DNA of 64,000 nt, taken from the NCBI GenBank assembly GCA_946615865.1, contig CAMOIJ010000003.1, positions 54,149 to 118,148 of the forward strand, written 5' to 3'. The position numbers and the translations under genes are program-made. Numbering within the stretch: position 1 is the first letter of the stretch; the number at the start of each line of letters is the position of its first letter. This document shows, piece by piece, positions 6,803-42,809 of the stretch. This stretch comes from an uncultured Lachnospiraceae bacterium (GTDB taxonomy: Bacteria > Bacillota > Clostridia > Lachnospirales > Lachnospiraceae). The notes under the pieces are model-generated. The model was not told the origin of the DNA. It saw nothing but the letters and a program-made list of their open reading frames with translations, and made no database searches.

Positions 6803-7154
6803 CATCGGATTTGACTTAAGGCCATATTTGGATGTAGCCCTTTTTGGCGTTTCTTGCCGGGTGCCCCATCGGATTCAACTAAAACCATATGTGGATGTAG
6901 CCTGTTTTGGTGTTTATTGGTTTGTACTACATCGGATTCAGCCAATGTCTCGATTTGGATGTAAAATTCAAGCAAGACAAGCTTTGCGAAATCCATCGGA
7001 TGTGGCGAAAAACTGGAATAGATGTAGAAATTCAGTTGAACTGACATTTCGAGCTACATCCGATTTGGCAACAAGCCGGAAATGGATGTAGAGTTTGTGC
7101 CAGACAAGCATTTTGAACTACATCCGATTTGACGACAAGCCGAAAAGGATGGAG
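6803..7154 (+). repeat. Phased repeat array A: six CATC...GATG units, 63-64 bp period
   Basis: CATC occurs at 6803, 6867, 6930, 6994, 7057 and 7121, and GATG at 6831, 6894, 6958, 7021, 7085 and 7148. Spacing within a unit alternates 28, 27, 28, 27, 28, 27. The inner and outer sequences have diverged between units while the spacing has not. In unit 5 the arms are a full CTACATCC/GGATGTAG. It lies between the 3' end of the SRAP gene and the promoter side of the PadR gene and is not coding. The outer segment GAGTTTGTGCCAGACAAGC of unit 5 is nearly repeated, reversed, in array B. Confidence 0.85.
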
Positions 7155-7211
7155 ATTTTGTGCTGGACACGCCTTAATCCTTCACGCTTAATACAACAGC
7201 CTTGAGTTTCT

Positions 7212-7799
7212 CTAAAATTCAAAACTTATCTGCTCGTACGGCCTCTCCGCCTTCAGCATCGGCAGCTCCTTTGTCAAAATATCGCCGGCCTTTGCAGCGT
7301 CGCTCACCCAGGGAAGCACTTCATCCCCGGTAAGGATGAGCGGCATCCGGTCGTGCACCGGCTCCATGGAGGCGTTCGCCTCTCTGGTCAGCACGACAAA
7401 CCTCTTCTCCTCGCCGTAAGGCCGGAAGATTCCCGCCAGATAGAGGATCGGCCGGTCAGGAAGGGTGAAGATCACCTTTTCTTTCTTTTTGTCCCATTCG
7501 TAGAAGCCCGCTGCCGGCAGCGCACAGCGCCGCCCGGCAAAGCTGTCCGCAAATGTCGGCCGGTCTTTCACACTCTCCGCCCGAGCATTGATGAGGAGCC
7601 TTCCCTTGTCAAATCCCGGAAATCCCCATAGAAGAGGCTCCATACAGACGCCGCTTCCGGTTCCGGCGGCAATCGCCGCCGCGCTCATTCCAGGCGTATA
7701 GTCCCCTGCCCGGAGCCTCATGACCTCGCCAGCCAGGTCGGGGAAGTCCTCGAGAAACGCGTCCTCCGCGTCGTCATTCCAGAAGTACCTGCCGCACAT
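7212..7799 (-). CDS. SRAP (HMCES/YedK-type) abasic-site DNA-protein crosslinker
   Basis: The 195-residue protein matches the SRAP family. Cys2 follows the initiator Met and is the residue that forms a thiazolidine crosslink with abasic sites in single-stranded DNA once Met is removed. The other active-site residues are visible: N71-A-R-x-E75, E101 in GFYEW and H149 in HDRMP. It shields abasic sites during replication. It starts two bases after the purine nucleoside phosphorylase stop, so the two are surely co-transcribed. The alternative 'SOS-associated peptidase' label refers to the same family. Confidence 0.93.
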   Translation of the reverse strand: MCGRYFWNDDAEDAFLEDFPDLAGEVMRLRAGDYTPGMSAAAIAAGTGSGVCMEPLLWGFPGFDKGRLLINARAESVKDRPTFADSFAGRRCALPAAGFYEWDKKKEKVIFTLPDRPILYLAGIFRPYGEEKRFVVLTREANASMEPVHDRMPLILTGDEVLPWVSDAAKAGDILTKELPMLKAERPYEQISFEF

Positions 7800-7801
7800 C
7801 T

Positions 7802-8629
7802 TCAGATTCTCCTGACGACTTCCTTTACAAGTCTCTGAAGCTCTTTGCCGGCGCGGTTCGCCACCTTCTGGATCTCCTCATGTGAAGTCTCGAAGGTCGT
7901 ATTTACGATGGCCATATCCGTTATGCAGGTGATGCCCATGATCCGCATGCCCATGTGCTTGAGCGCAACACCCTCGCAGCCCGTGCTCATTCCTACCGCG
8001 TCTGCGCCGAGCATCGCGTACATCGCGACCTCGTTGGGCGTCTCATAGGCGGGACCTGTGATCTGAAGATAGAAGCCATCCTCAAGTTCAATGCCGAGGT
8101 CATCCGCTGTCTTATGCAAAAGCTCCTGCAGGTCTTTGTCATAGATCGCGCTCACATCGGGGAAGCGGACGCCCAGTCTGTCGTCATTGGGGCCGATCAG
8201 CGGCGAAGGCACAAATGCCGTGTTCTGGTCGTTGATGCACATCAGTGTGCCGGGATGGAAATTCTTGTTGAGGCCTCCAGCAGCATTGGTCAGGATGATC
8301 ACGTCTACACCCAAAAGCGCCATGACACGCACCGGCAGCACTACTTTCTGCATGGGATAGCCCTCATAGAAATGCACTCGGCCGTTCATCAGGACCACCG
8401 GGATCGAATCGATATAGCCGAAGATGTACTCTCCCTTGTGGCCTTCCACTGTCGAGCGAGGGAATCCCTCGAGTTCGGAATAGGGAATTCTGGTCACAAC
8501 TTCGATGTCATCCGCCAGTCCGCCGAGGCCGGATCCAAGCACGATACCTACCTTCGGCACAAAGTCTGTGCGCTCGCGCACTGCGTTCAGAGCCAGTTCA
8601 TAATCCTTCAAATTTGCGTTATCTGCCAT
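7802..8629 (-). CDS. punA: Purine-nucleoside phosphorylase, trimeric (PunA) type
   Basis: The 275-residue enzyme cleaves purine nucleosides with phosphate. Seen motifs are the phosphate loop GSGLGG (32-37), GHKGEY, the NAAGGLN loop, GPAYETPNE with the purine-binding Glu, and GADAVGMST. The base-recognition position that is Asn243 in human PNP (ITNKV) reads ITD here, Asp238. In mammalian PNP an Asp there favours 6-aminopurines, so adenosine use is possible. It is the third gene of a GNAT-mazG-punA-SRAP run, with GGGGA before its ATG. Confidence 0.9.
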   Translation of the reverse strand: MADNANLKDYELALNAVRERTDFVPKVGIVLGSGLGGLADDIEVVTRIPYSELEGFPRSTVEGHKGEYIFGYIDSIPVVLMNGRVHFYEGYPMQKVVLPVRVMALLGVDVIILTNAAGGLNKNFHPGTLMCINDQNTAFVPSPLIGPNDDRLGVRFPDVSAIYDKDLQELLHKTADDLGIELEDGFYLQITGPAYETPNEVAMYAMLGADAVGMSTGCEGVALKHMGMRIMGITCITDMAIVNTTFETSHEEIQKVANRAGKELQRLVKEVVRRI

Positions 8630-8667
8630 TTTGTTCCCCTTTCTAAATCTCGCCGGTCATTCCCGGT

Positions 8668-9174
8668 TTATTCTTTCCTGAATCCCTTGCGCCTCTCAGC
8701 GACGTCGATCAGTTCCTTCGCCTCTTCCATGGCGGCTGCCAGATACGGCTCCTGCCATTCCCGTCCTTCTTTTTCCGCCCGTTTGATCTCCTCCCAGGCG
8801 GCGTCTTTCTCCGCTTCCGAGCTGTATTTTGCCCCGCCGAAGAGATGCGGATGCCTGCGCACCATCTTGTCCGCGGCAGTCTTCGCCACATCCTCCAGTG
8901 TAAAGAGCCCCTCTTCCTCCGCAAGGCTCGCGTGGAAGATCACCTGGAAGAGCAGGTCGCCCAGCTCCTCCCTCAGATTCTCGGGATCGCCCGTAGCTGT
9001 CAAAATATTGATCCCGCACACGACCTCCGCAGCCTCCTCAATGCACATCGCCTTGATGCTCTCATGGGTCTGTGTGCTGTCCCAGGGGCATCCGTCTTTG
9101 GCGCGGAGGCGCTCTATGATCGTTTTCAGTCTTTCCATTTCACTCATTCTGCTCATTTCCCCGGCCTGCGTCAT
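8668..9174 (-). CDS. mazG: MazG-family nucleoside triphosphate pyrophosphohydrolase
   Basis: The 168-residue protein is a single MazG domain: RLRAKDGCPWDSTQTHESI, the metal-binding EEAAEV helix and the EELGDLLFQVIFH helix, then KMVRRHPHLFG. MazG enzymes hydrolyse (d)NTPs to monophosphates and pyrophosphate and so clean the nucleotide pool or lower (p)ppGpp. E. coli MazG has two such domains; this one has one, as is common in Clostridia. The start ATG overlaps the upstream acetyltransferase stop (ATGA), which supports translational coupling and this start. Confidence 0.92.
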   Translation of the reverse strand: MTQAGEMSRMSEMERLKTIIERLRAKDGCPWDSTQTHESIKAMCIEEAAEVVCGINILTATGDPENLREELGDLLFQVIFHASLAEEEGLFTLEDVAKTAADKMVRRHPHLFGGAKYSSEAEKDAAWEEIKRAEKEGREWQEPYLAAAMEEAKELIDVAERRKGFRKE

Positions 9175-9734
9175 TTGTGTTCACCGATCATTTTCTCCAT
9201 CCAGATCATGCTGTACCACCGCCCGAACTTGTATCCGCACTGGTGGAAAGTGCCGACCGTTCTGTATCCCAGATGTTCGTGAAACTGCGCGCTGTTGTAG
9301 TCCAGGTATTCGTCCGCTTCATCCGGATATCCGATGCAGGCGTAGAGATTGAGGATCCCCCGCACCTTCAGGGCTTCCTCAAGGGCCTCGTAGAGTTTTC
9401 TTCCAAGGCCTCCGCCGACCGCTTCGCGGTCCAGGTAGATCGTCATCTCGCAGGAGCGGTCGTAAGCCGCCCTATCCTTGAAGACGCCGGCATACGCGTA
9501 TCCCTCGATCACTCCGCCGCGCTCGATCACCAGATAAGGATAGCGCTCCTTTATATGCGCGATCCTGCCCCTGAACTCCTCGAGTGAAGGCACATCGTAT
9601 TCGAAAGTGATGGCTGTCTTCTCAACATAGTAGGCGTAAATCTCCAGAAGACGGGGAGCGTCATCTACTATCGCCTCTCGGATGCGGATCCCGGCTTGAG
9701 AAGCCGCGGTTCCGCCGTGCTGACCTGTTCTCAT
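9171..9734 (-). CDS. GNAT N-acetyltransferase, phosphinothricin/methionine-sulfone type
   Basis: The 187-residue protein is a GNAT fold of the Pat/MddA group: IREAIVDDAPRLLEIY at the N-terminus, FEYDVPSLEEF, the acetyl-CoA loop GGGLGRKLYEAL near residue 115, and the terminal HEHLGYRTVGTFHQCGYKFGRW. These enzymes acetylate amino groups of glutamate-like toxic compounds. The ATG at 9734 lies nine bases after GGAGG; a TTG three codons earlier touches the GGAGG and is a worse start. It heads the mazG-punA-SRAP operon. Confidence 0.85.
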   Translation of the reverse strand: MRTGQHGGTAASQAGIRIREAIVDDAPRLLEIYAYYVEKTAITFEYDVPSLEEFRGRIAHIKERYPYLVIERGGVIEGYAYAGVFKDRAAYDRSCEMTIYLDREAVGGGLGRKLYEALEEALKVRGILNLYACIGYPDEADEYLDYNSAQFHEHLGYRTVGTFHQCGYKFGRWYSMIWMEKMIGEHK

Positions 9735-9875
9735 CTCATTCAACCTCCAAACCCTATATTTAATAATACCGCATCCCCGGATTATTTCATACTTTTGTTT
9801 CTCATAAGGATTTAGCAGGGGCTTTGTGGTATTCTATAAGTGCAGAACTTTTATGCGCACGAAAGGATCAAGATC

Positions 9876-9992
9876 ATGTCCGAATACGGAATTTCCCAGA
9901 TTTATCCCACAGACCGGTACTCCAACGACCAGGTCGACAAACTGCTCCTGGCAGAGGGGATCCGGAGTGAAGAAAATGTGATCCACTATTGA
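9876..9992 (+). pseudogene. 38-residue ORF resembling the N-terminus of a citrate-lyase-ligase-like GNAT protein
   Basis: AAAGGA nine bases before an ATG opens a short frame beginning MSEYGISQIYPTD and ending LLLAEGIRSEENVIHY. The pattern 'short helix, LL-x-x-EGI-R' resembles the first 40 residues of CitC-type acetyltransferase domains, where the protein would normally continue. Here it stops 48 bases before the GH32 start. It may be a remnant or a leader peptide; the family resemblance is by eye. Confidence 0.35.
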
Positions 9993-10039
9993 CGCTTCCG
10001 GAGATTCCGGCTGACAGATTCTCTCAAACAGGAGGAATT

Positions 10040-11641
10040 ATGAAAAAGAGTTACAGACCCTATTATCACGCTTCCGTGCCTTCGGGCTGGTCCAACGACC
10101 CCAACGGAACCATCTATTATAACGGCAAAGCGCACCTCTTCTTCCAGCATTACCCCCATAAACCCGCGTGGGGCACCATGCACTGGGGCCATTTCACAAC
10201 CGAGGACTTCGTGCACTGGGATGTGCTCCCGGTCGCTCTTGTTCCGGACCGGGATTATGAAGTCATCTGCGGCTGCTGCTCCGGTTCCACCATCGAGAAG
10301 GACGGCAAGCTGTACCTGATGTACACCGCCGCGCAGCCCACGCTGCAGAGACAGTGCATGGCAGTGTCTGAAGACGGCGGAGTCACATTTACCAAAGATG
10401 AGTCCAATCCCATCCTGACCGCTGACATGCTCAGCAAAGAAGTGTCCCCTCTGGATTTCAGGGATCCCCGCCTCTTTAAAAAGGACGGCTGGTACTACTT
10501 CATCGCCGGCGCGCGCGTGATCGATCTGAATGCGAGCAAGGAAGAGCTCGATGAGCGCACCTCAAAATGGGACAAGCACGCCCCCTCCTCCTCTCTCCGC
10601 TACGCAGAGGTGGACGGAGCTCAGCATGTGGGCGTCAGTCACAAAGGGCAGTCTCCTTCTCTGGACGATGTCTTTGGCATAGAGCCTGCGGACGCAGGTT
10701 TCGGAAACCTCATTCTGTGCAGGAGCCGCGACCTGATGAAGTGGGAATATGTGGGGCATCTGCTTCACAGGCAGCCGGAGTTTGAAGATGACTTCTATAA
10801 CCTTAACGGCGTCTATGAATGTCCGGACTATCTGGTGATCGACGGAAAGGAAGTCATACTTACCAGCCCCCAGAACCTGCCTCAGATGGACAACCACTTC
10901 CAGAATGTCCACTCCGGACTCTACCTTTTGGGAAAACTGGACTTTGAGACCGGCCGCTTCGATCTTAAAAAGATCGGAGAGCTCGACAACGGTTTCGACT
11001 TCTACGCCGCGCAGAGCCTGCACATGCCCGACGGGCGCTATATCATGATCTCCTGGAAAGAAATGTGGGACCGCAACTACCCCACCCAGGCTGAAGGCTG
11101 GGCAGGCACCTATTCTTTCCCCAGAGAACTCAGCATGGACGGAGACTGTCTGATCCAGAAACCGGCAAGGGAGCTCGACAGGTTCTGCAAGAACAAGGTG
11201 ACCTGCCAGTCCCTCTCCATCACCGACAGTGAAGTATCCGTCAAGGGCATCAGCGGCACAGTCACAAGGATCCGCCTGACTCTGGAGCCCGGCACCGCCG
11301 CCCGCGCAGGCGTCAAACTCTTTGCGGGGGAGGAACATGAAACCGTAGTATATTTTGACCGCGAAGAGGGCGTTCTCGCTATCGACCGCAGTAAGTCCGG
11401 GATTCCTTTCACGGGCAGTGAGGACAACGTGAATGTCCGCAAACTGGACATTGACTCCCCGGAATCCATCGAGCTGGAGATGCTGCTCGACATCAGCTCG
11501 CTGGAAGTTTTCATCGACGGAGGCAGACATGTGATGACCGCAAACGTATACCCCGATCCCGAGGACACCGATGTCCGCTTCTTCGCTGAAGACGGCAGCG
11601 CGGCCTTCCACAATATCGAGAAATTTGACGTGATCGTGTAA
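10040..11641 (+). CDS. Glycoside hydrolase family 32 beta-fructosidase (sucrose/fructan hydrolase)
   Basis: The 533-residue enzyme has the three GH32 catalytic motifs: WSNDPNG with nucleophile Asp20, FRDPRLF with the transition-state Asp142, and YECPD with acid/base Glu260. A five-bladed propeller (1-370) is followed by a C-terminal beta-sandwich. No signal peptide is present, so it should act in the cytoplasm on sucrose, sucrose-6-phosphate or imported oligofructose. The ATG at 10040 has GGAGG four to five bases before it; an in-frame ATG 51 bases upstream lacks one. It has its own terminator and no adjacent transporter. Confidence 0.93.
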   Translation: MKKSYRPYYHASVPSGWSNDPNGTIYYNGKAHLFFQHYPHKPAWGTMHWGHFTTEDFVHWDVLPVALVPDRDYEVICGCCSGSTIEKDGKLYLMYTAAQPTLQRQCMAVSEDGGVTFTKDESNPILTADMLSKEVSPLDFRDPRLFKKDGWYYFIAGARVIDLNASKEELDERTSKWDKHAPSSSLRYAEVDGAQHVGVSHKGQSPSLDDVFGIEPADAGFGNLILCRSRDLMKWEYVGHLLHRQPEFEDDFYNLNGVYECPDYLVIDGKEVILTSPQNLPQMDNHFQNVHSGLYLLGKLDFETGRFDLKKIGELDNGFDFYAAQSLHMPDGRYIMISWKEMWDRNYPTQAEGWAGTYSFPRELSMDGDCLIQKPARELDRFCKNKVTCQSLSITDSEVSVKGISGTVTRIRLTLEPGTAARAGVKLFAGEEHETVVYFDREEGVLAIDRSKSGIPFTGSEDNVNVRKLDIDSPESIELEMLLDISSLEVFIDGGRHVMTANVYPDPEDTDVRFFAEDGSAAFHNIEKFDVIV

Positions 11642-11656
11642 TTGATCTGGAAAGCT

Positions 11657-11704
11657 TAAAAGACCGGCCGGCGGCACATGAACTGCCGCTGACCGGTCTT
11701 TTTT
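11657..11704 (+). terminator. Rho-independent terminator of the GH32 gene
   Basis: A long GC-rich stem starting AAAAGACCGG and closing CCGGTCTTTT is followed by TT and an AT-rich tract directly after the GH32 stop. Confidence 0.85.
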
Positions 11705-11724
11705 ATATATTTCAGCCCCTTTTT

Positions 11725-11802
11725 TCAGTGCATCATCAGAAAGAGGGGGATCTGCAGGATCAGGATGAATCCTATCAGGATCCAGAACATCTTCTTATTC
11801 AT
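11725..11802 (-). CDS. 25-residue hydrophobic membrane peptide downstream of the DUF937 gene
   Basis: The frame begins MNKKMFWILIGFILILQ and ends IPLFLMMH: a basic start, one uninterrupted hydrophobic helix and a polar end, the typical form of a small membrane protein. It begins 15 bases after the DUF937 stop on the same strand. A GGGGA lies 10-14 bases before its ATG, which is weak. I know no family; expression is inferred from composition and position. Confidence 0.5.
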   Translation of the reverse strand: MNKKMFWILIGFILILQIPLFLMMH

Positions 11803-11817
11803 CTCATTGTCCCCGGT

Positions 11818-12363
11818 TTACTTTCTCGCATTCAGCAGTGCCTGAAGAAGCGCTGTGCCGTTGATGGCGTCATCCTTCTCCTCAGCCTGGACCTGGGCGC
11901 CTGTTCCCAGAAGAGCGCTGAAGATGCCGGGTGCCGCGGACTGCGCGGCGGGCTTGTTGTTAGATGCAGCCTCGGAGACGCCGCTGAGGATCGCGGGCGC
12001 CATGATAGCCAGGATCTGGTTGACCTGCTCCTGGGTCAGACCGGACTGAGCAGAGAGATTCTGTGTGACAGTTTCCTCCTTCTTGCCGAGGATGTGACCA
12101 ATGATCTTGTGGCCGTCTTTCTCATCGGCGTCCTTGAGCTGAATGCCCATATCCTCTTTGTTGCTGTGCTGGGCAAGAGCTCCTAAAAGAGAATGCGCGC
12201 CGTCGCCTGATGAAGCGTTCTTGGTCAGGTATTTGATCAGGATCGGAATCGCGATCAACATAAGCTTTTTGATCTGCTTCTCAGAGAGACCGGTCTTCTT
12301 AGCAATCTGTCCCAAAGCATTCTTCGTTGTCATAGCAGCCATCAGTAAACCAAGCAGATTCAT
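11818..12363 (-). CDS. DUF937-family protein
   Basis: The 181-residue protein begins MNLLGLLMAAMTTKNALGQ and contains the DUF937 pattern of Gly/Ala-rich helices: KKLMLIAIPILIKYLTKNAS, GIQLKDADEKDGHKIIGHIL, LSAQSGLTQEQVNQILAIMAP. Such proteins are small, helical, cytoplasmic and of unknown function. Start at 12363 is set by GGAGGGAGG just upstream; an ATG 32 codons earlier lies within the leader hairpins. The leader between aroF and this gene carries three GC-rich hairpins in a row, so expression may be controlled there. Confidence 0.75.
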   Translation of the reverse strand: MNLLGLLMAAMTTKNALGQIAKKTGLSEKQIKKLMLIAIPILIKYLTKNASSGDGAHSLLGALAQHSNKEDMGIQLKDADEKDGHKIIGHILGKKEETVTQNLSAQSGLTQEQVNQILAIMAPAILSGVSEAASNNKPAAQSAAPGIFSALLGTGAQVQAEEKDDAINGTALLQALLNARK

Positions 12364-12378
12364 AAAATCCTCCCTCCT

Positions 12379-12452
12379 GTGCCCTCGCGGCACCTGCCGG
12401 CTTTGGCCGGCCTGATTATTATTTGTATTCGCTTCCGGGCCCGTACAGGGCC
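12379..12452 (-). promoter_or_regulatory. Three consecutive hairpins in the leader of the DUF937 gene
   Basis: GTGCC/GGCAC (12379-12393), GCCGGC-TTTG-GCCGGC (12396-12411) and GGCCC-GTACA-GGGCC (12438-12452) are perfect short stems placed end to end before the ribosome binding site. The one nearest aroF is followed by an AT-rich stretch on the minus strand and could end the aro transcript; the others may be leader structure. Confidence 0.5.
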
Positions 12453-12489
12453 TGCGCATATTATTATTTTAGCGCAATCAGCGCGTAAA

Positions 12490-13521
12490 TCACAGTAGTT
12501 CCGCCATATCGTAAATCAGTTTCTCCGTCTTTTTCCACCCGATGCATGCGTCTGTGATGCTCTTTCCGTACACGCCGCCGTCGACCGGCTGATTTCCGTC
12601 TTCTATGTAGCTCTCCACCATAAAGCCCTTCACGAGCTTCTTTACCTTCGGGTTGTAGCGGCAGGAATGCAGAACTTCCTTGAGGATGCGCGCCTGCTCG
12701 AAGGGCTTCTTTCCGCTGTTGGCGTGGTTGCAGTCGACCACGACGGCGGGATTCTTCAGCTCCCATTTCTTGTAAAGATCCGAGAGATAGAGCAGGTCCT
12801 CGTAGTGATAGTTAGGGTGTGAGACACCCTGTCTGTTCACATATCCTCTGAGGATCGCGTGCGCGAAGGGATTTCCGTAGGAATGTCCCTCCCAGCCGCG
12901 GTAGATGAAATCGTGCTCGTGCTGTGCTGCCAAAATACTGTTCATCATGACAGTCAGGTCCCCGCTGGTGGGGTTCTTCATACCGACAGGGCACTCAATT
13001 GCGCTGGCAGTCAGTCTGTGCTGCTGGTCCTCCACGCTGCGGGCACCGACCGCCACATAGCCCAGAAGGTCGTCCAGATATTTGTGGTTCTCCGGATAGA
13101 GCATCTCGTCCGCGCATACAAATCCTGTCTCCTTCACCGCGCGCATGTGCAGTTCGCGTGTGGCAATGATCCCCTTAAAGAGATCGGGCTGCGCGTTGGG
13201 ATCCGGCTGGTGGACCAGCCCCTTGTAGCCTTCGCCGGTCGTCCGGGGCTTGTTCGTGTAAATGCGGGGGACAATGAGGATCTTATCCTTCACCTGTTCC
13301 CGCAGAGGCATAAGCCTGGATATATAGTCAATGACGCTCTCCTCGTTGTCAGCCGAGCAGGGCCCGATGATCAGGGCGAGCTTTTCGCTGTCGCCGGAGA
13401 AGATCGCTTTGAGCTCTGTGACTGTTCTCTCCACTGTCTCAGCCATGTCGCCGGTCAGAGGATACATCTCCTTGGTCTCCATAGGGATCGGGAGTTTGCG
13501 CTTGAAATCCATGTACATCAT
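12490..13521 (-). CDS. aroF: 3-deoxy-7-phosphoheptulonate (DAHP) synthase, type I
   Basis: The 343-residue enzyme condenses phosphoenolpyruvate and erythrose-4-phosphate, the first step of the shikimate pathway. Seen motifs are IIGPCSADN, RIYTNKPRTTGEGYKGL, GARSVEDQQHR, VDCNHANSGK and VESYIEDGNQP, including the metal-binding Cys, His, Glu and Asp. It is the last gene of pheA-aroB-aroF, 39 bases after aroB. With pheA in the same run, phenylalanine feedback is likely, but which aroF/G/H subclass it is cannot be decided. Confidence 0.93.
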   Translation of the reverse strand: MMYMDFKRKLPIPMETKEMYPLTGDMAETVERTVTELKAIFSGDSEKLALIIGPCSADNEESVIDYISRLMPLREQVKDKILIVPRIYTNKPRTTGEGYKGLVHQPDPNAQPDLFKGIIATRELHMRAVKETGFVCADEMLYPENHKYLDDLLGYVAVGARSVEDQQHRLTASAIECPVGMKNPTSGDLTVMMNSILAAQHEHDFIYRGWEGHSYGNPFAHAILRGYVNRQGVSHPNYHYEDLLYLSDLYKKWELKNPAVVVDCNHANSGKKPFEQARILKEVLHSCRYNPKVKKLVKGFMVESYIEDGNQPVDGGVYGKSITDACIGWKKTEKLIYDMAELL

Positions 13522-13560
13522 AATTCTATTCTCCTATTCGCATAGCAGCGTGTATCCGCG

Positions 13561-14574
13561 TCAGAGCCTCACCACTACATCAATACCGTAGCGGAGCACA
13601 GCGGGGTCGACTTTCTGTATTTTATAACTGCCGATACTGTCGACACTCACTACGCTGACATAGCCGTCTCCCATCTTCTTGTCGTGCAGCACAGCATGAT
13701 AGACTTCCTCGGGATCCGCGTGGACCCTGGCGGGAAGGTGCAGCGCTCCGAGCACAGGAAGCAGGCGGGATCTCACTGCCGGAGAGCACATGGGGATCAT
13801 ACCCATTGCGACGCATTCTCCGTGCAGAAGGCCGGTGACGCTCTCAATGCCGTGGCCGATGGTATGCCCGAAGTTCAATATTTTGCGCAGGCCGCTCTCG
13901 CGCTCGTCCTGTTCCACGACGGTTTTCTTGACGATCAGGGACGCAGCGATGATTTTCTCAAGGTCCAGAGGCGCCCTTGTATTCGCGAAGTCCTCGAACA
14001 TCGCGAAGAGCTCCGGATCAGCGATCAGCCCTGCCTTTACAGCCTCCGCGAGGCCGCTGGACTTCTGGCGGTCAACGAGAGTATCGAGCGTATCGGGATC
14101 GATCAGCACCTTTTTCGGCTGCCAGAAAGCGCCCACGATGTTCTTGACGCCTGCGAGGTTGATCGCTGTTTTGCCGCCTATCGAGCTGTCCACCTGGGAC
14201 AGGATCGTAGTCGGAATGTTGTAAAAGTCGATCCCCCGCATATAGCATGCCGCTGTGAAGCCGCCCAGGTCTCCCACGACGCCGCCTCCCACGGAGCATA
14301 CGCAGTCGCCGCGGGTAAAGCCGAGCTCAAGCATCCTGGTCAGAAGTTCTTCCAGGACCGCGAAGCTCTTGCTTCCCTCTCCCTGGGGCACTGTATAGAT
14401 ATGAGCCTCTCTGCACCGGTCCGCGACTGTCTGCGCGTACTGCGCCGGAACGCCGTCGTCGGTGAGAATGAACACCTTCCTGTCGAGGTTTAAGAGTTCC
14501 CCTGATTTCTGAAGGCAGCCTCTCTCCAGCACTATATCGTAACCCGATTCTCCGAGTTCCATGCGGATGATCAT
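13561..14574 (-). CDS. aroB: 3-dehydroquinate synthase
   Basis: The 337-residue enzyme makes 3-dehydroquinate from DAHP using NAD+ and a divalent metal. Visible are the NAD-binding GGGVVGDLGGFTAACY, PTTILSQVDSSIGGKTAINL, and the metal ligands in Glu-A-V-K-A-G and NFGHTIGHGIE. Length is slightly below the usual 350. Its ATG overlaps the pheA stop (ATGA) and GGGAGGAG lies a few bases upstream. Confidence 0.95.
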   Translation of the reverse strand: MIIRMELGESGYDIVLERGCLQKSGELLNLDRKVFILTDDGVPAQYAQTVADRCREAHIYTVPQGEGSKSFAVLEELLTRMLELGFTRGDCVCSVGGGVVGDLGGFTAACYMRGIDFYNIPTTILSQVDSSIGGKTAINLAGVKNIVGAFWQPKKVLIDPDTLDTLVDRQKSSGLAEAVKAGLIADPELFAMFEDFANTRAPLDLEKIIAASLIVKKTVVEQDERESGLRKILNFGHTIGHGIESVTGLLHGECVAMGMIPMCSPAVRSRLLPVLGALHLPARVHADPEEVYHAVLHDKKMGDGYVSVVSVDSIGSYKIQKVDPAVLRYGIDVVVRL

Positions 14575-15683
14575 ATCGTCTCTCCTCCCTGCTGTATATT
14601 TGATGTCGCGGTATAGCGCCCGACTACCTTAAGTCCCGGGCAGGTCCCGCGGAGCGCGCTGATCATGCGCTTTCCGTTCTCGGAGGAGTCATCTCCCTCC
14701 ACTTCCGCGTAAAAATAGTAATGCCACGGAAGGTCTTTCATGGGACGTGAGCGCAATACGCGCATGTTGAAATTGTAGGCGCTGATCACATTGACCGCTT
14801 TGGCAAGGCCGCCGGCCTCATCCTTGACGGTGAACAGAAGCAGGAACGCGCCTGCGTCTTTCCTGATCGCCATCTTGGTCTCTACTCTTGAAAATACCGC
14901 GAAGCGGGTCGTGTTCACCTTGCTCTCGTTGATATCGTGATCCAGGATCTGCAGCCCATAGAGATCGGCGGTCTCTTCACTGGCAATGGCCGCTGTGCTG
15001 CAGTCTCCGTCCTGGGCCACTTTCTGGGCTGCCAGAGCCGTGTTGGCCATACTGACCGCGTCAAAGCCGTGCTTGCGGATGTATGACCTGCACTGAGAAA
15101 TTGCCTGAGGATGGCTGTACACAGTCCTGATCTTGGAAATATCAGTCCCGGGCATTCCCAGAAGATTCTGGTTGATCGAAAGATCGTAAACACCGTTCAC
15201 ATACAGATCTCCGGAGAACATCAGGTCCAGCACCTGTCCGACTTCGCCGGCAAAACTGTTCTCGATGGGCAGCACCGCCACATCGCATTCTCCCTTTTCC
15301 ACAGCTTCGTACGCTGACTCGAAGGACGGATAAGATTCCAGTTCACCGTCAGGGAAAATGCGCCCCGCGGCAATGTGCGCAAACGCGCCCTCCACGCCGC
15401 TGTAAGCTACCCTGAGGCCTTCCATCAGATAGTGCTGCCAGCGCTTGCTGACATCCATCGTATCCTGCAGGAAATTCACGTAGAAAGAACGCAGTTCCGG
15501 ATCCTCCACCAGAGCGCTCCTGCCCTTAATGACTCTGGCCTCCTGCTCTTTATCTTCGATGGGAAGCCCTCTCTCTTTCTTATATGCAGCGACTGATCTG
15601 ACGGCTTCCATTCTCTTTACAAAAAGCTTCGCCATCTCCTCGTCGACCTGTCTGATCACTTCCCTGCTTTCCTGCAAATCCAT
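14571..15683 (-). CDS. pheA: P-protein: chorismate mutase / prephenate dehydratase
   Basis: The 370-residue fusion carries an AroQ chorismate mutase (1-90), a prephenate dehydratase (about 105-285; VAYSGVEGAFAH, ANTALAAQ, and catalytic TRF at NTTRFAVF), and a C-terminal ACT domain (295-370) for phenylalanine binding. The usual ACT motif ESRP reads RSRP, and GALV reads GGLA, so feedback may differ. The ATG at 15683 has AGGAG eight bases before it. It heads an operon with aroB and aroF. Confidence 0.94.
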   Translation of the reverse strand: MDLQESREVIRQVDEEMAKLFVKRMEAVRSVAAYKKERGLPIEDKEQEARVIKGRSALVEDPELRSFYVNFLQDTMDVSKRWQHYLMEGLRVAYSGVEGAFAHIAAGRIFPDGELESYPSFESAYEAVEKGECDVAVLPIENSFAGEVGQVLDLMFSGDLYVNGVYDLSINQNLLGMPGTDISKIRTVYSHPQAISQCRSYIRKHGFDAVSMANTALAAQKVAQDGDCSTAAIASEETADLYGLQILDHDINESKVNTTRFAVFSRVETKMAIRKDAGAFLLLFTVKDEAGGLAKAVNVISAYNFNMRVLRSRPMKDLPWHYYFYAEVEGDDSSENGKRMISALRGTCPGLKVVGRYTATSNIQQGGETI

Positions 15684-19094: not shown

Positions 19095-19121
19095 GAGACA
19101 AATGGAAGTTGTCTGTCTTGT

Positions 19122-19447
19122 GCCGTTTGAGTGCCGCTGGAGACAGTCCAGGGGCACTTCGGCGGCAATATGCTTGAATTGTGGGGCCTACTGCCGCTTG
19201 AGTGCCGCTGGAGACAGTCCAGGGGCACTTCAGCGGCAATATGCTTGAATTGTGGGGCTACTGCCGCTTGAGTGCCGCTGGAGACAGTCCAGGGGCACTT
19301 CAGCGGCAATATGCTTGAATTGTGGGGCTACTGCCGCTTGCGTGCCGCTGGAGACAGTCCAGGGGCACTTCAGCGGCAATAAGCTTGAATTGTGGGGCTA
19401 CTGCCGCTTGAGTGCCGCTGGAGACAGTCCAGGGGCACTCAAGCGGC
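19122..19447. repeat. Array C: five hairpin units, 70-bp period
   Basis: Each unit is a 45-base inverted repeat: GCCGCTTGAGTGCC, then G-CTGGA-gacag-TCCAG-G, then GGCACTTCAGCGGC. Units start at 19122, 19193, 19263, 19333 and 19403. The linkers of about 25 bases (around GCTTGAATTGTGGGGC) are almost identical. In unit 1, GCCGTT faces GGCGGC, which keeps pairing through G-T pairs; in unit 5 the right arm is changed to GGCACTCAAGCGGC and is a perfect complement. Small open frames across the array are by-products. Confidence 0.9.
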
Positions 19448-19470
19448 AATAAGCCCTGGAATCACTTCAT

Positions 19471-19880: not shown

Positions 19881-19881
19881 A

Positions 19882-31168: not shown

Positions 31169-31576
31169 CATCCTCTATCGGTTGCTGCCATATCCGATGG
31201 GCTGGAAAAGCTAGTTTGGCACAAATTCTCCATCCCTTTATCGGCATCGCCTAAACCGATGGTATGACAGATGCAAAATGTCCTAATGAACTCCATCTAT
31301 AGAGAAAAACAATCGTATCCGATGGATGCTTCAGGCAGAAGTGCCCAAATAAGCTCCAACCAAAAAGGAATTCTCTCTGTATGGATGTAGGGTACAGCCG
31401 GAAGTGCGCAGACAAGCCCCAGCCAAAAAGGAATTCTCTCTGTATGGATGTAGGGTACAGCCGGAAGTGCGCAGACAAGCCCCAGCCAAAAAGAAATTCT
31501 CTCTGTATGGATGTAGGGTACAGTCAAAAGTGCATAAACAGGGCCCATCCAACAAGAAATACTCACTAAAAAGATG
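31169..31576 (-). repeat. Phased repeat array B: seven CATC...GATG units, 62-63 bp period
   Basis: Left motifs start at 31169, 31231, 31294, 31357, 31420, 31483 and 31546 (units 4-6 read CAAC or CAGC); GATG starts at 31196, 31258, 31321, 31384, 31447, 31510 and 31573. The within-unit distance is 27 in all seven. Units 4-6 are nearly identical (around CTGTATGGATGTAGGGTACA). Read on the minus strand, the units resemble arrays A and D. It sits between convergent pyrC and murF and runs directly into palindrome E1. Confidence 0.88.
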
Positions 31577-31583: not shown

Positions 31584-31750
31584 GTAAGCAAGGAAGAATA
31601 TACCCTGTCAGTAACGACTTTTGAAGGGCGGGGAAGTCCCGCAGCAATAAGAAAAGAGACGGCTCGGCTGAGTCGTCTCTTTATATTACTAATCTGAACT
31701 TCCCCGCCCTTGAAATCGAACTGAATGGAAGGCTATATCCTCACGCGCGC
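31584..31750 (-). mobile_element. Nested palindrome E1 (MITE-like), copy 1
   Basis: GGAAGAATATACCCTGTCA (31592) opens a left arm that contains TTTTGAAGGGCGGGGAAGT (31619); the right arm starts ACTTCCCCGCCCTTGAAA (31698) and ends in a decayed copy of the terminal sequence. The centre (31653-31682) is a 13-bp hairpin AAAGAGACGGCTC/GAGTCGTCTCTTT with one G-T pair and T runs on both strands, suiting a bidirectional terminator for pyrC and murF. The reverse complement matches element E2 (42118-42284) along its whole length. No transposase is present. Confidence 0.85.
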
Positions 31751-37050: not shown

Positions 37051-37064
37051 TCTTTGCGTTCTCC

Positions 37065-40000
37065 TTAAATCTTCTGGACACCGATCGTGACCTTCTCACC
37101 GTTGATATCCCATTTCTTCTGATTTGCCAGTTCCGTATCCTTCTCGATCCTGTCTGCCAGAACCTTGCCTGCGATCGCCGCCTCATTCTTGGCAGCAACT
37201 GCGGACAGTTTGTCATTTCCGTTAAGAGATACACGGATGCGGTCCATGACTTCGAAACCGGATTCTTTTCTCATGGTCTGAATCTTGCTGATCAGCTCGT
37301 AAACATAGCCTTCTTCCACAAGTTCAGGGGTCAGGTTCGTATCAAGAACAGTGGTAAATCCTCCGTCTTCCTGGCTCACATAGCCTTCCTTGCGGGCAGT
37401 GTCGATCAGCAGATCTTCTTCTGTCAGCTCGACTCCGACGCCGTTCACGTCAAAGCGGAGAGCGCCCTCTGCCTTGAGGTCGTCCATCGCGGCGTTTCCG
37501 TCCAGAGAGGCCAGGTACTTCCTGATGCCGCCCAGCTGCTTGCCGTACTTAGGTCCGACAGTGCGAAGCTGAGGCTTGAAGGTATAACTTGTAAACTCGC
37601 GGACATCGTCCGTGAAATTCACTTTTTTGACATTGAGCTCATTCTTGATGATGTCCTGATAGAAAGCGTCAAGGCCCTTTGCCGCCTTTACGAACATCTG
37701 CGCGATGGGCTGTCTGTTCTTGATATTGGAGGCGTTGCGGCAGGCGCGTCCCATGACGACGATCCTGAGGACCTCGTCCATGCTCTCCTCGAGTTCCTTG
37801 TCGATATGTGTCTCATCCGCCTCGGGGAACAGGCACAGGTGAATGCTCTCGGGGGCAGCGGGATCTACGCTTCTGACGATATTCTGGTAAATCTCCTCTG
37901 TCATGAAGGGGATCATGGGCGCTGCGCACTTACAGACATTGACCAGGGCAGTGTACAGCGTCATGTAGGCGTTGATCTTATCCTGCTCCATGCCCTTAGC
38001 CCAGAAGCGGTCGCGGCAGCGGCGCACATACCAGTTGGACATCTCGTCCACGAATGTCTCCAGAGCGGAAGCTGCTTCAGGAATCCTGTAGTTCTCAAGA
38101 TTCTTGTCGGTGCTCGCGATCATGGTGTTCATTCTGGAGAGCAGCCACTTGTCCATGACGCTCAGTTTGTCATAATCCAGCGTATACTTTGTGGGATCGA
38201 AGCCGTCGATCTCCGCATACAAAGTATAGAACGCGTAGGTGTTCCACAGTGTTCCGAGGAACTTGCGCTGGCCTTCCTTAACGGTCTTGTCAGAGAACTT
38301 GTTGGGCAGCCAGGGCGCGCTGTTGGTATAGAAATACCAGCGGATCGCGTCCGCGCCGTGTGTCTTAAGCGCCGTGAAAGGATCAACTGCGTTGCCCTTG
38401 CTCTTGGACATCTTGTTGCCGTCCTCATCAAGAACCAGTCCCAGGACGATAACATTCTCATAGCAGGGCTTGTCAAAGAGGAGTGTAGACTCCGCGTGCA
38501 GGGAATAGAACCAGCCGCGGGTCTGGTCCACCGCTTCAGAGATGAATGCGGCGGGGAACCACTTCTCGAAGAGTTCCTTGTTCTCAAAAGGATAGTGGAG
38601 CTGCGCGTAAGGCATTGCTCCGGAGTCGAACCAGCAGTCGATGACCTCGGGCACACGGTGCATCACGCCTCCGCAGTCGGGGCAGGTGATCGTAAACGCG
38701 TCCACATAAGGTCTGTGCAGTTCTGTGTGCTCAGCTTCCGGATTACCGGACAGTTCGGCGAGCTCTTTCCTGCTGCCGACACTGATCTGATTGCCGCAGC
38801 CCTCGCACTCCCAGATGTTCAGGGGAGTACCCCAGTATCTGTCGCGGGAAATGCCCCAATCCTGAATATTCTCGAGCCAGTTGCCGAAACGGCCCTCTCC
38901 GATGGTCGGAGGGATCCAGTTGATCTTCTTATTGCCGCTTACAAGGTCATCCCTGACGGAGGTCATCTTGATAAACCATGACTGGCGCGCATAGTACAGA
39001 AGCGGTGTTCCGCAGCGCCAGCAGTGAGGATAATCGTGCTCGAACTTGGGCGCGGAGAACAGGATCCCGCGGGCGCTCAGGTCCTTAAGCACTTCGGGAT
39101 CAGCGCTGACAGCGCCCTTTTCCATCTCTTCGTGCGTAGGCTTGCAGCGCATGCCCGCGAAAGGAGTTCCCTCGACGAGGCGTCCCTGCGCGTCAACGAG
39201 CTGTACGAAAGGAGCGTCGTATTTGCGGCCGACTCTCGCGTCGTCTTCACCGAAAGCAGGCGCGATATGAACGATGCCGGTACCGTCTGTCATTGTTACG
39301 TAATCGTCGCAGTATACGAAGAAAGCTTTCTTGTGCTGCTGCGCGGTCCTTCTTGCGGCCTCCTCATAAAGAGGTTCGTAAGGCTTATACTCCAGATCCT
39401 TGCCCTTCATGGTCTCAAGGACTTCGTAAGCCTTGTCGTCGGCAGTCGCGTCATACTTCTCTTTCAGAGGCTCAAGGACCTTGTCCAGAAGAGCTTCCGC
39501 CATGTAGTAAGTGCAGCCGTCGATAGCCTTGACCTTGGCATATGTGTCCTCAGGGTTCACGCAGAGCGCGATGTTAGAGGGCAGTGTCCAGGGAGTCGTC
39601 GTCCATGCCAGGAAATAAGCATCTTCGCCCTCAACCTTGAAGCGCACGATAGCTGAGCGCTCCTTAAGAGTCTTGTAACCCTGCGCCACCTCGTGGGAGG
39701 ACAGCGGCGTTCCGCAGCTGGGGCAGTAAGGAACGACCTTGAAGCCCTTGTAGAGAAGGCCTTTCTTCCAGATCTCCTTGAGAGCCCACCACTCGGACTC
39801 AATATAGTCGTCGTAATATGTTACGTAAGGGTTGTCCATGTCAGCCCAGAAACCGACAATGCCGGAGAATTCCTCCCACATCGATTTGTATTTCCAGACA
39901 CTCTCCTTACACTTCTCGACAAAGGGAGCGATCCCGTATTCTTCGATCTGCTCCTTGCCCTCGATACCGATCTCTTTCTCAACTTCCAACTCTACAGGAA

Positions 40001-40268
40001 GACCGTGGGTATCCCATCCGGCCTTTCTGGGAACCTGATATCCCTTCATCGTGCGGTAACGCGGCACCATGTCCTTGATGACTCTTGTAAGAACATGGCC
40101 GATGTGCGGCTTTCCGTTTGCCGTGGGCGGGCCGTCATAAAACATATATGTGGGGCAGCCCTCGCGCTCCTTCACGCTCTTTTCAAAAATCTGATTGTCT
40201 TGCCAGAATTTCAGTGTATTGTGTTCTCTTTCCACGAAATTCAGGTCGGTGTTAACCTTTTTGTACAT
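37065..40268 (-). CDS. ileS: Isoleucyl-tRNA synthetase, eukaryote-like (IleS2) type
   Basis: The 1067-residue class I synthetase has the HIGH box in TANGKPHIGHVL (near residue 55) and KMSKS in NKMSKSKGNAVDP. The opening FYDGPPTANG, the length and the C-terminal region without the bacterial zinc finger match the second type of IleRS, found in eukaryotes and some bacteria and often less sensitive to mupirocin. No T-box leader is visible upstream. AAGGAG precedes the ATG. Confidence 0.95.
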   Translation of the reverse strand: MYKKVNTDLNFVEREHNTLKFWQDNQIFEKSVKEREGCPTYMFYDGPPTANGKPHIGHVLTRVIKDMVPRYRTMKGYQVPRKAGWDTHGLPVELEVEKEIGIEGKEQIEEYGIAPFVEKCKESVWKYKSMWEEFSGIVGFWADMDNPYVTYYDDYIESEWWALKEIWKKGLLYKGFKVVPYCPSCGTPLSSHEVAQGYKTLKERSAIVRFKVEGEDAYFLAWTTTPWTLPSNIALCVNPEDTYAKVKAIDGCTYYMAEALLDKVLEPLKEKYDATADDKAYEVLETMKGKDLEYKPYEPLYEEAARRTAQQHKKAFFVYCDDYVTMTDGTGIVHIAPAFGEDDARVGRKYDAPFVQLVDAQGRLVEGTPFAGMRCKPTHEEMEKGAVSADPEVLKDLSARGILFSAPKFEHDYPHCWRCGTPLLYYARQSWFIKMTSVRDDLVSGNKKINWIPPTIGEGRFGNWLENIQDWGISRDRYWGTPLNIWECEGCGNQISVGSRKELAELSGNPEAEHTELHRPYVDAFTITCPDCGGVMHRVPEVIDCWFDSGAMPYAQLHYPFENKELFEKWFPAAFISEAVDQTRGWFYSLHAESTLLFDKPCYENVIVLGLVLDEDGNKMSKSKGNAVDPFTALKTHGADAIRWYFYTNSAPWLPNKFSDKTVKEGQRKFLGTLWNTYAFYTLYAEIDGFDPTKYTLDYDKLSVMDKWLLSRMNTMIASTDKNLENYRIPEAASALETFVDEMSNWYVRRCRDRFWAKGMEQDKINAYMTLYTALVNVCKCAAPMIPFMTEEIYQNIVRSVDPAAPESIHLCLFPEADETHIDKELEESMDEVLRIVVMGRACRNASNIKNRQPIAQMFVKAAKGLDAFYQDIIKNELNVKKVNFTDDVREFTSYTFKPQLRTVGPKYGKQLGGIRKYLASLDGNAAMDDLKAEGALRFDVNGVGVELTEEDLLIDTARKEGYVSQEDGGFTTVLDTNLTPELVEEGYVYELISKIQTMRKESGFEVMDRIRVSLNGNDKLSAVAAKNEAAIAGKVLADRIEKDTELANQKKWDINGEKVTIGVQKI

Positions 40269-40641
40269 CTTTCTCCTTCCGCCTTTCTCGTCAGCATTTG
40301 TAGGATGGAAGAAATACAGAACTCTGCACTTTCTCCATAGTAACCAATCGATTATAACGTTTGGGGCAAAATACTGTCAAGGACTGCTTCATCTTTTGTC
40401 ACAATCCCGTAAAATTTATTCAGGCCGGCCGCACCGTCAAAATGCTCAACAAAATGCCCCTGTTTGACAAAAATTCCTCAAAGAATTTGCTAAATAGAGT
40501 ATTTCGTAGTATCATCATGGAAAATAGTGCTGTCAAGACACCTCATATTTGAACAGTTTTTCTGTACAAATCTCAGCAATCACCACATGCTGTGTCCATT
40601 GACAACACTTTGTTTCAGTCATTGTCTCCAGGAGGAAAAAA
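40269..40641. other. Divergent intergenic region ileS / pncB
   Basis: I find no gene, T-box, or strong hairpin here. It must hold the promoters of both genes; AT-rich tracts occur around 40330-40360 and 40480-40520 but no confident promoter can be marked. Confidence 0.5.
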
Positions 40642-42114
40642 ATGGACAGACAGAACCTGACATTGCTCACAGATCTCTATGAGCTTACCATGATGCAGGG
40701 ATATTTTAAGAATAAGGAAGAGAACAATACTGTCATCTTCGACGCGTTCTTCAGAAATAATCCCTTCGGCGGCGGCTATTCGATCATGTGCGGGATCGAA
40801 CAGCTTGTAAAGTATATCAAAGAGCTCCATTTCAGCAAAGAAGACATCGATTATCTGCGCGGGCTCGGCATCTTTGACGAGGATTTCCTCTCTTATCTTT
40901 CCGAATTCCGCTTCACCGGCACGATCTACGCGATCCCCGAAGGATCCCTTATGTTCCCCAGAGAGCCTATGGTAAAAGTCATTGCCCCGATCATGGAAGC
41001 ACAGCTCGTGGAGACAGCGATCCTCAATATCATCAACCACCAGAGCCTGATCGCCACAAAGGCGGCAAGGATCTGTTATGCGGCCCGCGGTGACGGAATC
41101 ATGGAATTCGGACTTCGCCGCGCTCAGGGGCCCGACGCGGGAACTTACGGCGCACGTGCGGCAGTTATCGCCGGATGTGTCGGAACATCCAATGTACTAT
41201 GCGGACAGCTCTTTGACGTCCCCGTAAAGGGCACGCACGCCCACAGCTGGATCATGAGCTTCCCGGACGAGCTGACCGCCTTCAAGACTTACGGCGATCT
41301 GTATCCCAACGCCTGCATCCTTCTCGCGGATACCTATGACACCCTTAAATCCGGTGTCCCGAACGCGATCAAGACCTTCCAGTATCTGCGCGACAAAGGC
41401 AAACTCGGTAAAGGCTACGGCATCCGCCTCGACAGCGGCGACCTTGCCTACCTCTCCAAGAAAGCCCGCAAGATGCTCGATGAGGCCGGTTTCCCGGATG
41501 CCATCATCTCCGCCTCCAACGACCTGGATGAGCACCTGATCGATTCCCTGAAGAACCAGGGCGCGACCATCACTTCCTGGGGCGTCGGCACACACCTGAT
41601 CACAGCTAAAGACAACCCGTCCTTCGGCGGCGTCTACAAGCTTGCTGCGATCCAGAACCCGGACGGCTCCTTCGAGCCCAAGATCAAGCTTTCCGAGAAC
41701 ACCGAAAAGGTGACCAACCCCGGCAACAAGAAGATCTACCGCGTCTACGAGAAGGCTTCTCACAAGATCATCGCAGACCTCATCTGCCTCGAGGAAGAGA
41801 TCTTCACCGACGAGCGTCCTCTGGTGCTCTTCGATCCCGCAGAGCCCTGGAAGAAGACCCGCCTGGAAGCCAACGAATTCGAGCTCAGAGAGCTGATGAT
41901 CCCTCTGTTCGTAAACGGCGAGTGTGTCTACACATTCCCCAAGACCATGGACATCCGCAAAGAGTGCCTTGCCGAACAGGACACCCTCTGGGAGGAATCC
42001 AGACGTCTCGTCAACCCTCACCAGATCTACGTCGACCTTTCCAGGAAGCTGTATGACACCAAGCTCCGCCTGCTCGACGAAGTCGGCGAGAAGACGCAGG
42101 GCATCCAGAGCTGA
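40642..42114 (+). CDS. pncB: Nicotinate phosphoribosyltransferase
   Basis: The 490-residue enzyme converts nicotinate and PRPP to nicotinate mononucleotide for NAD salvage. It begins LLTDLYELTMMQGYF, has the FGLRRAQGPDAG and GTHAHSWIMSF (catalytic His) motifs, the DSGDLAYLSK loop and the GVGTHLITA phosphate site. AGGAGGAAAAAA precedes the ATG. It stands alone on the plus strand and ends at element E2. Confidence 0.95.
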   Translation: MDRQNLTLLTDLYELTMMQGYFKNKEENNTVIFDAFFRNNPFGGGYSIMCGIEQLVKYIKELHFSKEDIDYLRGLGIFDEDFLSYLSEFRFTGTIYAIPEGSLMFPREPMVKVIAPIMEAQLVETAILNIINHQSLIATKAARICYAARGDGIMEFGLRRAQGPDAGTYGARAAVIAGCVGTSNVLCGQLFDVPVKGTHAHSWIMSFPDELTAFKTYGDLYPNACILLADTYDTLKSGVPNAIKTFQYLRDKGKLGKGYGIRLDSGDLAYLSKKARKMLDEAGFPDAIISASNDLDEHLIDSLKNQGATITSWGVGTHLITAKDNPSFGGVYKLAAIQNPDGSFEPKIKLSENTEKVTNPGNKKIYRVYEKASHKIIADLICLEEEIFTDERPLVLFDPAEPWKKTRLEANEFELRELMIPLFVNGECVYTFPKTMDIRKECLAEQDTLWEESRRLVNPHQIYVDLSRKLYDTKLRLLDEVGEKTQGIQS

Positions 42115-42117
42115 AAA

Positions 42118-42284
42118 ACTCGCGCGGAAGAATATACCCTGTCATTCACTCCGATTTGAAGGGCGGGGAAGCTCAAATTAGTAATAAAGAGACGGCTCGA
42201 GCGAGCCGTCTCTTTTCTTATTGCTGTTGTACTTCCCCGCCCTTCAAAAGTCGTTACTGACAGGGTATATTCTTCCTTGCTTAC
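42118..42284 (+). mobile_element. Nested palindrome E2 (MITE-like), copy 2
   Basis: A perfect 19-bp terminal inverted repeat, GGAAGAATATACCCTGTCA at 42126 and its complement at 42258, encloses a second pair of arms (TTTGAAGGGCGGGGAAG and complement) and a central 14-bp hairpin AAAGAGACGGCTCG (42186-42215) with T runs on both sides. It begins just after the pncB stop and can act as its terminator. It is the inverted counterpart of E1; both have GTAAGCAAGG on the array side. Confidence 0.88.
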
Positions 42285-42399
42285 ACTTTCCCTGCCCTTG
42301 CAGGGCCTTCTAAGGGCTCGATTGCGGCAGCCACCTGGCTGGCACAAGCTTCTTACCAAACTCCGCTCCTACTGCGGACTGGGCTTTTGGCTGCACCTA
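42285..42399 (+). other. Linker between E2 and array D
   Basis: Holds a small CCCTG/CAGGG hairpin and a segment (TGGCACAAGCTTCTTACC) resembling degenerate array-unit sequence in array B. Probably a decayed part of the array. Confidence 0.4.
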
Positions 42400-42809
42400 C
42401 ATCCGTACAGAGAAAATTTCTTTTTGGATGGAGCCTTTCTCAGCACTTCTGCCAGGACCATACATCCATACAGGAAAATCTTCTTTTTGGATGGACCCTT
42501 TCTCAGCACTTCTGCCTGCACCATACATCCGTACAGGAAAATCTTCTTTTTGGATGGACTCTTCACTCGGCACTTCTGCCTGGACCATACATCCATTCAG
42601 AAAAATCTTCTTTTTGGATGGACCCAGTCTCAAAACTTCAGCCTGCACCATACATCCATTCAGGAAAATTTTCTTTTTGGATGGACCCAGTCTCAAAACT
42701 TCAGCCTGCACCATACATCCATTCAGGAAAATTTTCTTTTTGGATGGACCCAGTCTCAAAACTTCAGCCTGTACCATACATCCATTCAGAAAAATCTTCT
42801 TTTTGGATG
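42400..42809 (+). repeat. Phased repeat array D: seven CATC...GATG units, 63-64 bp period
   Basis: CATC starts at 42400, 42463, 42526, 42590, 42653, 42716 and 42779; GATG at 42427, 42490, 42553, 42617, 42680, 42743 and 42806; the within-unit distance is 27 each time. The inner part has an A run and a T run (CATCC ... TTTTTGGATG) that add pairing next to the arms. Its reverse complement is similar base by base to array B. One 64-base step breaks the reading frames, so it is not a coding repeat. Confidence 0.9.

Follow-up and report, generated by a model that had tools for sequence, protein, structure and literature searches.

A clade-specific family of intergenic arrays of dyad-symmetric sites in helical phase in an uncultured Lachnospiraceae bacterium

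Three arrays in the window and their kin in the genome

The 64,000-nucleotide stretch of contig CAMOIJ010000003.1 analysed here (positions 54,149 to 118,148, hereafter the window) comes from an uncultured Lachnospiraceae bacterium and carries three arrays of short repeated units, named A, B and D. Array A adjoins a PadR-family regulator gene, and array D lies next to a NAPRTase gene. Each unit comprises a core, bounded by a left arm CATC and a right arm GATG, and cores are separated by linkers. The arrays are members of a family that is real, clade-specific and intergenic, and what is conserved in it is the short arm, the dyad and the helical phase. The first-pass annotation had described 20 units (6 + 7 + 7) at given positions, and all 20 were verified. 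The start-to-start distance from CATC to GATG was 27 or 28 bases in every unit, the unit step was 62 to 64 bases, and the step in A alternated between 64 and 63. The left arm reads CAAC, CAGC and CAGC in units B4, B5 and B6, respectively. The longest run of perfect in-register cores in the window was 7, compared to a maximum of 2 in 100 dinucleotide shuffles. Units B4 to B6 on the opposite strand resemble D, and B1-B2 have linker words in common with A5-A6, so the three arrays look like one family. Their positions are given below; cores carry no strand and were read directly from the letters.

6803..7151, minus strand (family orientation): array A, 6 cores, by direct reading of units
6803..6834: core A1
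6867..6897: core A2
6930..6961: core A3
6994..7024: core A4
7057..7088: core A5
7121..7151: core A6
31169..31576, plus strand: array B, 7 cores; units 1-3 in plus orientation, units 4-7 better inverted
31169..31199: core B1
31231..31261: core B2
31294..31324: core B3
31357..31387: core B4 (left arm CAAC)
31420..31450: core B5 (left arm CAGC)
31483..31513: core B6 (left arm CAGC)
31546..31576: core B7, a terminal unit type also in the arrays of loci L064 and L075 (reading and unit clustering)
42400..42809, orientation ambiguous: array D, 7 nearly identical cores, like B4-B6 inverted
42400..42430: core D1
42463..42493: core D2
42526..42556: core D3
42590..42620: core D4
42653..42683: core D5
42716..42746: core D6
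42779..42809: core D7

We searched the source assembly (GCA_946615865.1; 2.68 Mb, 106 contigs, 88% complete) with a two-linker pattern, which gave 149 + 149 matches compared to 2 + 2 for the reversed-pattern control. Around the matches listed there are at least 28 arrays with 175 cores and 154 linkers, which is a minimum count. Together with 50 arrays from five other genomes, 78 arrays were read in six genomes. Among perfect-arm pairs of the own-genome arrays, the distance from CATC to GATG (n = 158) was 27 in 118 cases, 28 in 38 and 26 in 2, and that from GATG to the next CATC (n = 137) was 36 in 106, 35 in 26, 37 in 3, and 34 and 33 in one case each. Array size had a strong mode: 31 of the 78 arrays have exactly 14 arms (7 cores) and 15 have 12 arms; under free slippage, sizes should spread more widely. 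Linkers also showed polarity, with type GCTTGTCTGGCACAAAC nearer one array end and CAGAAACGCTCAAATTC nearer the other, and the order was the same in many arrays.

All 28 own-genome arrays were intergenic according to codon-based gene predictions made for this analysis. Twelve lie between convergent, 14 between co-directional and 2 between divergent genes, compared to 10, 32 and 19 among 61 gaps of at least 80 bp at the same loci. Arrays were thus enriched between convergent genes (p = 0.016) and depleted between divergent genes (p = 0.015). Relative to the co-directional genes, 7 arrays are in sense and 7 in antisense orientation by our own count.

Helical phase, constraint and symmetry

Linkers between consecutive perfect cores were scanned in the 78 arrays with 200 bp of flank, and orthologous copies were counted separately. 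The linkers of 20-60 bp (n = 334) measured 24 (1), 25 (5), 26 (2), 33 (1), 34 (6), 35 (58), 36 (249), 37 (7), 44 (1), 45 (1) and 46 bp (3), with none at 27-32 or 38-43 bp. In other words, 320 fell at 34-37 bp, 8 at 24-26 bp, 5 at 44-46 bp and 1 at 33 bp, and 13 of the 14 odd linkers were about one helical turn from the norm. The mean period among steps of 60-66 bp was 63.05 bp. Longer gaps up to 130 bp measured 68 (2), 89-90 (5), 95 (1) and 98-100 bp (20, with a missed arm); those of 89-90 bp represent a missed arm plus a linker one turn short at L082, L174, L206 and L185, and one long linker at L215. After grouping, about nine linker exceptions were independent and eight of them were one turn in size (p = 9e-5 against the sizes of flank indels). 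The count becomes 8/10 if L196 (-4 bp, arm lost) is included (p = 3.5e-4), and the internal exceptions alone give 4/4 (p = 0.0036) or 4/5 (p = 0.014). These counts leave out L197 (ambiguous, with a second CATC inside), the 68- and 90-bp gaps (L069, L179, L215) and the missing-arm cases. The distance from site to site is in whole helical turns, and the proposal that about 63 bases corresponds to six turns agrees with odd linkers being mostly one turn off the norm.

The arms and their spacing were then compared between orthologous arrays. Among 40 valid ortholog pairs, 23 had an array identity of at least 0.85, and the most diverged of these was taken at each of 12 loci, a choice that omits pairs with replaced array content. 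Differences affected 5 of 539 arm positions and 271 of 3590 interior positions (Fisher p = 1.4e-11); 37 positions in arms and 216 in interiors fell in gaps. An earlier ortholog alignment was biased because it demanded arms in both species, and it was superseded by two one-sided counts, the one above and a recount. Substitutions in the recount numbered 21/2731 in arms (37 in gaps), 451/3952 in cores and 651/5410 in linkers, with pairs counted in both directions and segments of >97% or <75% identity omitted, which raises the interior rates. By the one-pair-per-locus count, the conservation of arms in orthologous units was about 8-fold that of interiors. The spacing between aligned arms (pairs both ways) was the same in 149 of the 171 core intervals and in 127 of the 168 linker intervals; it changed by 1 bp in 12 core and 22 linker intervals and by 2-4 bp in 1 core and 4 linker intervals. 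The remaining changes (9 core and 15 linker intervals) were larger and mostly whole units. Non-array DNA beside the arrays showed indels of many sizes. These data support the earlier suggestion of selection on spacing.

A neutral origin, in which the register of tandem repeats is held by slippage and gene conversion only, is quite improbable in our judgement. Some arrays are indeed homogeneous (D and parts of L064 and L080), and copy number varies. However, conversion would not spare the arms alone, with their about 8-fold higher conservation. Where the spacing differs between orthologs, it mostly does so by 1 bp or by whole units, in contrast to the broad indels of the flanks. Random spacing in other strains and a single recent tandem duplication had been posed as findings that would undo the idea of a phase constraint. 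The same spacing was found in four related species, and unit clustering is inconsistent with one duplication: 488 cores fell into 120 types and 437 linkers into 118 types, in recurring runs common to several loci.

The 31-bp core is a two-fold symmetric site under per-site constraint. Positions with few substitutions were 4 and 26, 6-8 and 22-24, and the centre at 15, and the substitution profile was symmetric about the centre (r = 0.88, permutation p = 0.0003), which is not a simple decay from the arms. Base conservation over 79 non-redundant cores was also symmetric (r = 0.70, p = 0.01), and complementarity was in excess (p = 0.02).

The symmetry could be read as base pairing in a transcript, and a repeating folded transcript was one branch of the first-pass annotation. 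Arrays did fold better than dinucleotide shuffles (median z of -2.45 and -2.83 on the two strands). However, native core and linker halves folded no better than swapped halves on both strands (z of -1.2 to 1.2), and whole arrays folded no better than chimeras between arrays. Both hairpins in each unit and long-range pairing across a whole array were rejected on these half-swap tests. Because half-swaps leave folding unweakened, we infer that the symmetry is one of recognition rather than of base pairing. A need for linker steps of 10-11 bp is not expected of RNA, and the Rfam scan of the window at gathering scores gave no match. With no compensatory pairing and no strand bias (7:7), a repeated folded RNA in the 3' regions of transcripts is very improbable, and this branch is not supported. 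The other branch, a DNA-binding or bending protein, gains indirect support from the dyad-symmetric constraint in the core.

A separate candidate, a mirror-image array in which left linkers are the reverse complement of right ones, was dropped: the excess was weak (0.40-0.41 at most, compared to a baseline of 0.34), and direct similarity was about equal.

Distribution, turnover and neighbouring genes

Among the 62 genomes of the genus, the array family occurs only in five close species, apart from one partial array in a sixth. The specific pattern matched 6 of the 62, with zero matches for the reversed control in each; G000, G003, G032, G045 and G060 had many matches and G044 had a single one. 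The bare core pattern matched 5 of 62 (control zero). No match was found in 391 other sampled genomes of the order, the one matching genome among 392 being the window's own. A looser pattern gave a background of about 10-60 matches in most other members of the genus, which reads as coding chance on the whole, not match by match. The core pattern matched 38 viral contigs once each, and none of the 38 had two cores in array spacing. Searches for a plasmid origin (array D against plasmids) and a phage origin (array A against phages) gave no match.

The partial array in G044 (L190, 3710-3903) has 7 arms, in a species that is otherwise array-less. Its unit types are those of L086, and one of its flanks matches an L086 flank at 96.5% over 315 bp; judged from this likeness, a recent transfer is possible. 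A further array type, with cores of almost perfect symmetry (CATCGGATTTCGGTATCGGCAGAATCCGATG), was noted, in the pattern list only, at G032:C106:19716-20132.

The NAPRTase next to D served for comparison across the species. It is 99% identical to the window's in G060, 99-100% identical over two pieces in G003, and 99% identical over residues 1-280 and 94% over 304-484 in G045; the search in G032 gave no match. In array-less G053, G023 and G054 and in single-array G044 it is 95% identical. The nearest named relatives are a Lachnospiraceae metagenome-assembled genome (85%) and Butyrivibrio sp. VCD2006 (81%), and 80 named NAPRTase loci (1.39 Mb) contained zero arrays.

Syntenic arrays with matching flanks differed by whole units, with gaps of 61-65, 180 and 192 bp. 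Site D lacks an array in G060, and in G003 it carries a largely different one that includes some D-like stretches (G045 and G032 unresolved). The array at site B is one unit shorter in G003, and none is present there in G060, G045, G044, G053, G023 or G054 (G032 was uninformative).

Other repeats occur near the arrays. A large palindromic element with ends ACCCTGTCA...TGACAGGGT and an internal terminator-like stem adjoins B (31590-31715) and D (42126-42276). The element or a variant is present at both sites in the array-less sister G023, and in G054 homology at site B is retained from 31592 on; a plasmid search with the B copy gave no match. An inverted-repeat stretch, GGCGGCAGATGCGCGATACAATCG..., adjoins D at 42845-43097, and G003 has a copy at the same site (87%), though the array there is largely different. 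A separate tandem array at 19121-19451 of the window has a 70-bp unit in 4.7 copies (96% matches) with an internal palindrome GTGCC...GGCAC, and lacks CATC/GATG arms at a 63-bp step.

Of the 56 genes adjoining own-genome arrays, 55 were scanned against Pfam. They were mostly housekeeping genes, 8 had no Pfam match, and neither a common neighbour nor a transposase or recombinase match was found among them. Two encode helix-turn-helix regulators: the PadR-family gene by A, whose start lies 31 bp from the array, and an AraC-type gene by L081. A protein with Sel1 repeats and a TIR domain that matches the Thoeris ThsB_TIR family is encoded at L076 (4814-6280), at a distance of 863 bp from an array.

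Two further explanations were considered. In the first, the arrays would be substrates for a site-specific recombinase or unit exchange, with the arms as recombination sites, which would explain the gain and loss of units and the replacement of content. The whole-unit differences between orthologs favour it, as does the finding that one locus with matching flanks can carry arrays of different content. The lack of a recombinase or transposase match in the 55 scanned genes counts against it; moreover, simple exchange needs no multi-unit phasing, though a synaptic complex might. We regard this explanation as doubtful.

The second would be a selfish repeat like the repetitive extragenic palindromic (REP) sequences and bacterial interspersed mosaic elements (BIMEs), spread by a Y1 transposase (RAYT, REP-associated tyrosine transposase) acting on hairpins. 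The arrays are likewise extragenic, clustered, located at gene 3' ends, mosaic and variable between species, and Y1_Tnp genes were present in all six array-bearing genomes. However, Y1_Tnp is present in 44 of the 62 genus genomes, and none of 19 stretches around Y1 genes contained an array. These stretches cover 20 of the 24 Y1_Tnp matches in five array genomes, and several end at contig ends. Spread by Y1/RAYT was not supported. The arrays show no complementary mutations, TAG follows the arm (outward) at just 195 of 821 arm ends, and selfish copies would not be expected to hold a per-copy constraint on arm and phase in synteny. A REP-like origin is thus unlikely.

A putative nucleoprotein system and its relation to known repeats

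We propose that the arrays are in-phase palindromic sites bound by a DNA-binding protein, with a probability of roughly 0.6; the protein, its cooperativity and its role are inferred from the nucleotide patterns described above. The site in this reading is a two-fold symmetric 31-bp DNA with a half-site of roughly MCATCSNWTT, repeated about 63 bp, or six helical turns, apart. Copies of the predicted protein would contact each other along the DNA only with sites in helical phase. The role may be architectural, as a local nucleoprotein structure or a boundary at gene 3' ends. Since arrays prefer convergent and avoid divergent gene pairs, we think that such a role is likelier than classical promoter repression. 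A broader reading is tentative: the arrays may form a genome-wide architectural system of the clade's own, in which dozens of arrays lie at gene 3' ends, each typically with 5-8 palindromic sites in helical phase. As part of it, each array might seed a nucleoprotein filament built by a dedicated protein, with selection keeping the phase and the four-base arm and not the sequence, which is equally tentative.

Several observations weigh against a protein bound to in-phase sites. The linkers too show symmetric conservation (r = 0.54, p = 0.03) and complementarity (p = 0.002), which makes the choice of segment for "the site" less certain. Each arm is about 13.75 bp away from the dyad, which misfits a simple same-face dimer, so a single protein dimer would need to wrap or bend the DNA. 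No binding protein was found among the scanned flanking genes, and the two regulators there differ from each other. The phase signal is clear in the linker histogram but rests on few independent one-turn exceptions, which were grouped by eye. The arm test used only 23 of the 40 ortholog pairs (identity at least 0.85) before the choice of one per locus. Finally, single arrays are dispensable: G060 lacks both D and B, and B is also missing in G045 and four sister species.

No description of such an array family was found in the literature, within the top-ranked matches and with few subscription papers covered. REP sequences and BIMEs are extragenic, high-copy, clustered, palindromic, mosaic and lineage-specific, with regular spacing in BIMEs, and BIMEs bind proteins such as gyrase and IHF (PMC2817692, PMC3686654, PMC3733652). 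The present arrays share the extragenic, clustered, many-copy, palindromic, mosaic and lineage-specific character. In Stenotrophomonas, REP palindromes are kept by complementary changes, and the lengths of inter-REP segments vary substantially (PMC2817692). The arrays differ in having a 31-bp symmetric core at helix-phased spacing and, as a rule, no tag of the GTAG/GTGG class, and no Y1 gene was seen beside them.

The Neisseria intergenic mosaic elements (NIMEs) combine dRS3, the 20-bp ATTCCC(N8)GGGAAT, with RS units of 30-160 bp (PMC3898611). Like our arrays, they lie between genes and repeat a short sequence whose inverted ends are conserved and whose middle varies, with other repeats in between. 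However, our arrays have CATC/GATG arms 27-28 bp apart and near-constant linkers, a comparison in which the dRS3 motif itself was not searched for. Pneumococcal BOX elements, which end in boxA and boxC modules and have a predicted RNA fold (PMC3049150), are likewise modular and intergenic, and the copy number of their tandem middle module varies, whereas the ends of our arrays differ, though some terminal units recur, and no RNA fold is supported. CRISPR arrays have identical repeats and unrelated spacers, unlike the present arrays, whose cores and linkers both vary gradually; cas genes were not searched for.

The spacing of sites in whole helical turns resembles that of operators of the lac type, where repression depends on whole turns between protein sites. 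Further helically phased repressor operators are those of araC and lambda. In lac, repression is strong when the operators are in phase and becomes weak or vanishes when half a turn is added (PMC2553838). Such operators are few, lie at promoters and have a known protein, in contrast to the dozens of arrays here, which typically have 5-8 sites each and are located for the most part away from divergent promoters.

Selfish palindromes or RNA hairpins are frequent interpretations of short bacterial repeats, and the signature of this family is instead helical phase. The clustering of linker lengths at whole-turn steps makes protein-DNA geometry readable from sequence alone. If our proposal is true, the arrays would represent a nucleoprotein system that a few species possess and that was not found in species whose NAPRTase is 95% identical.

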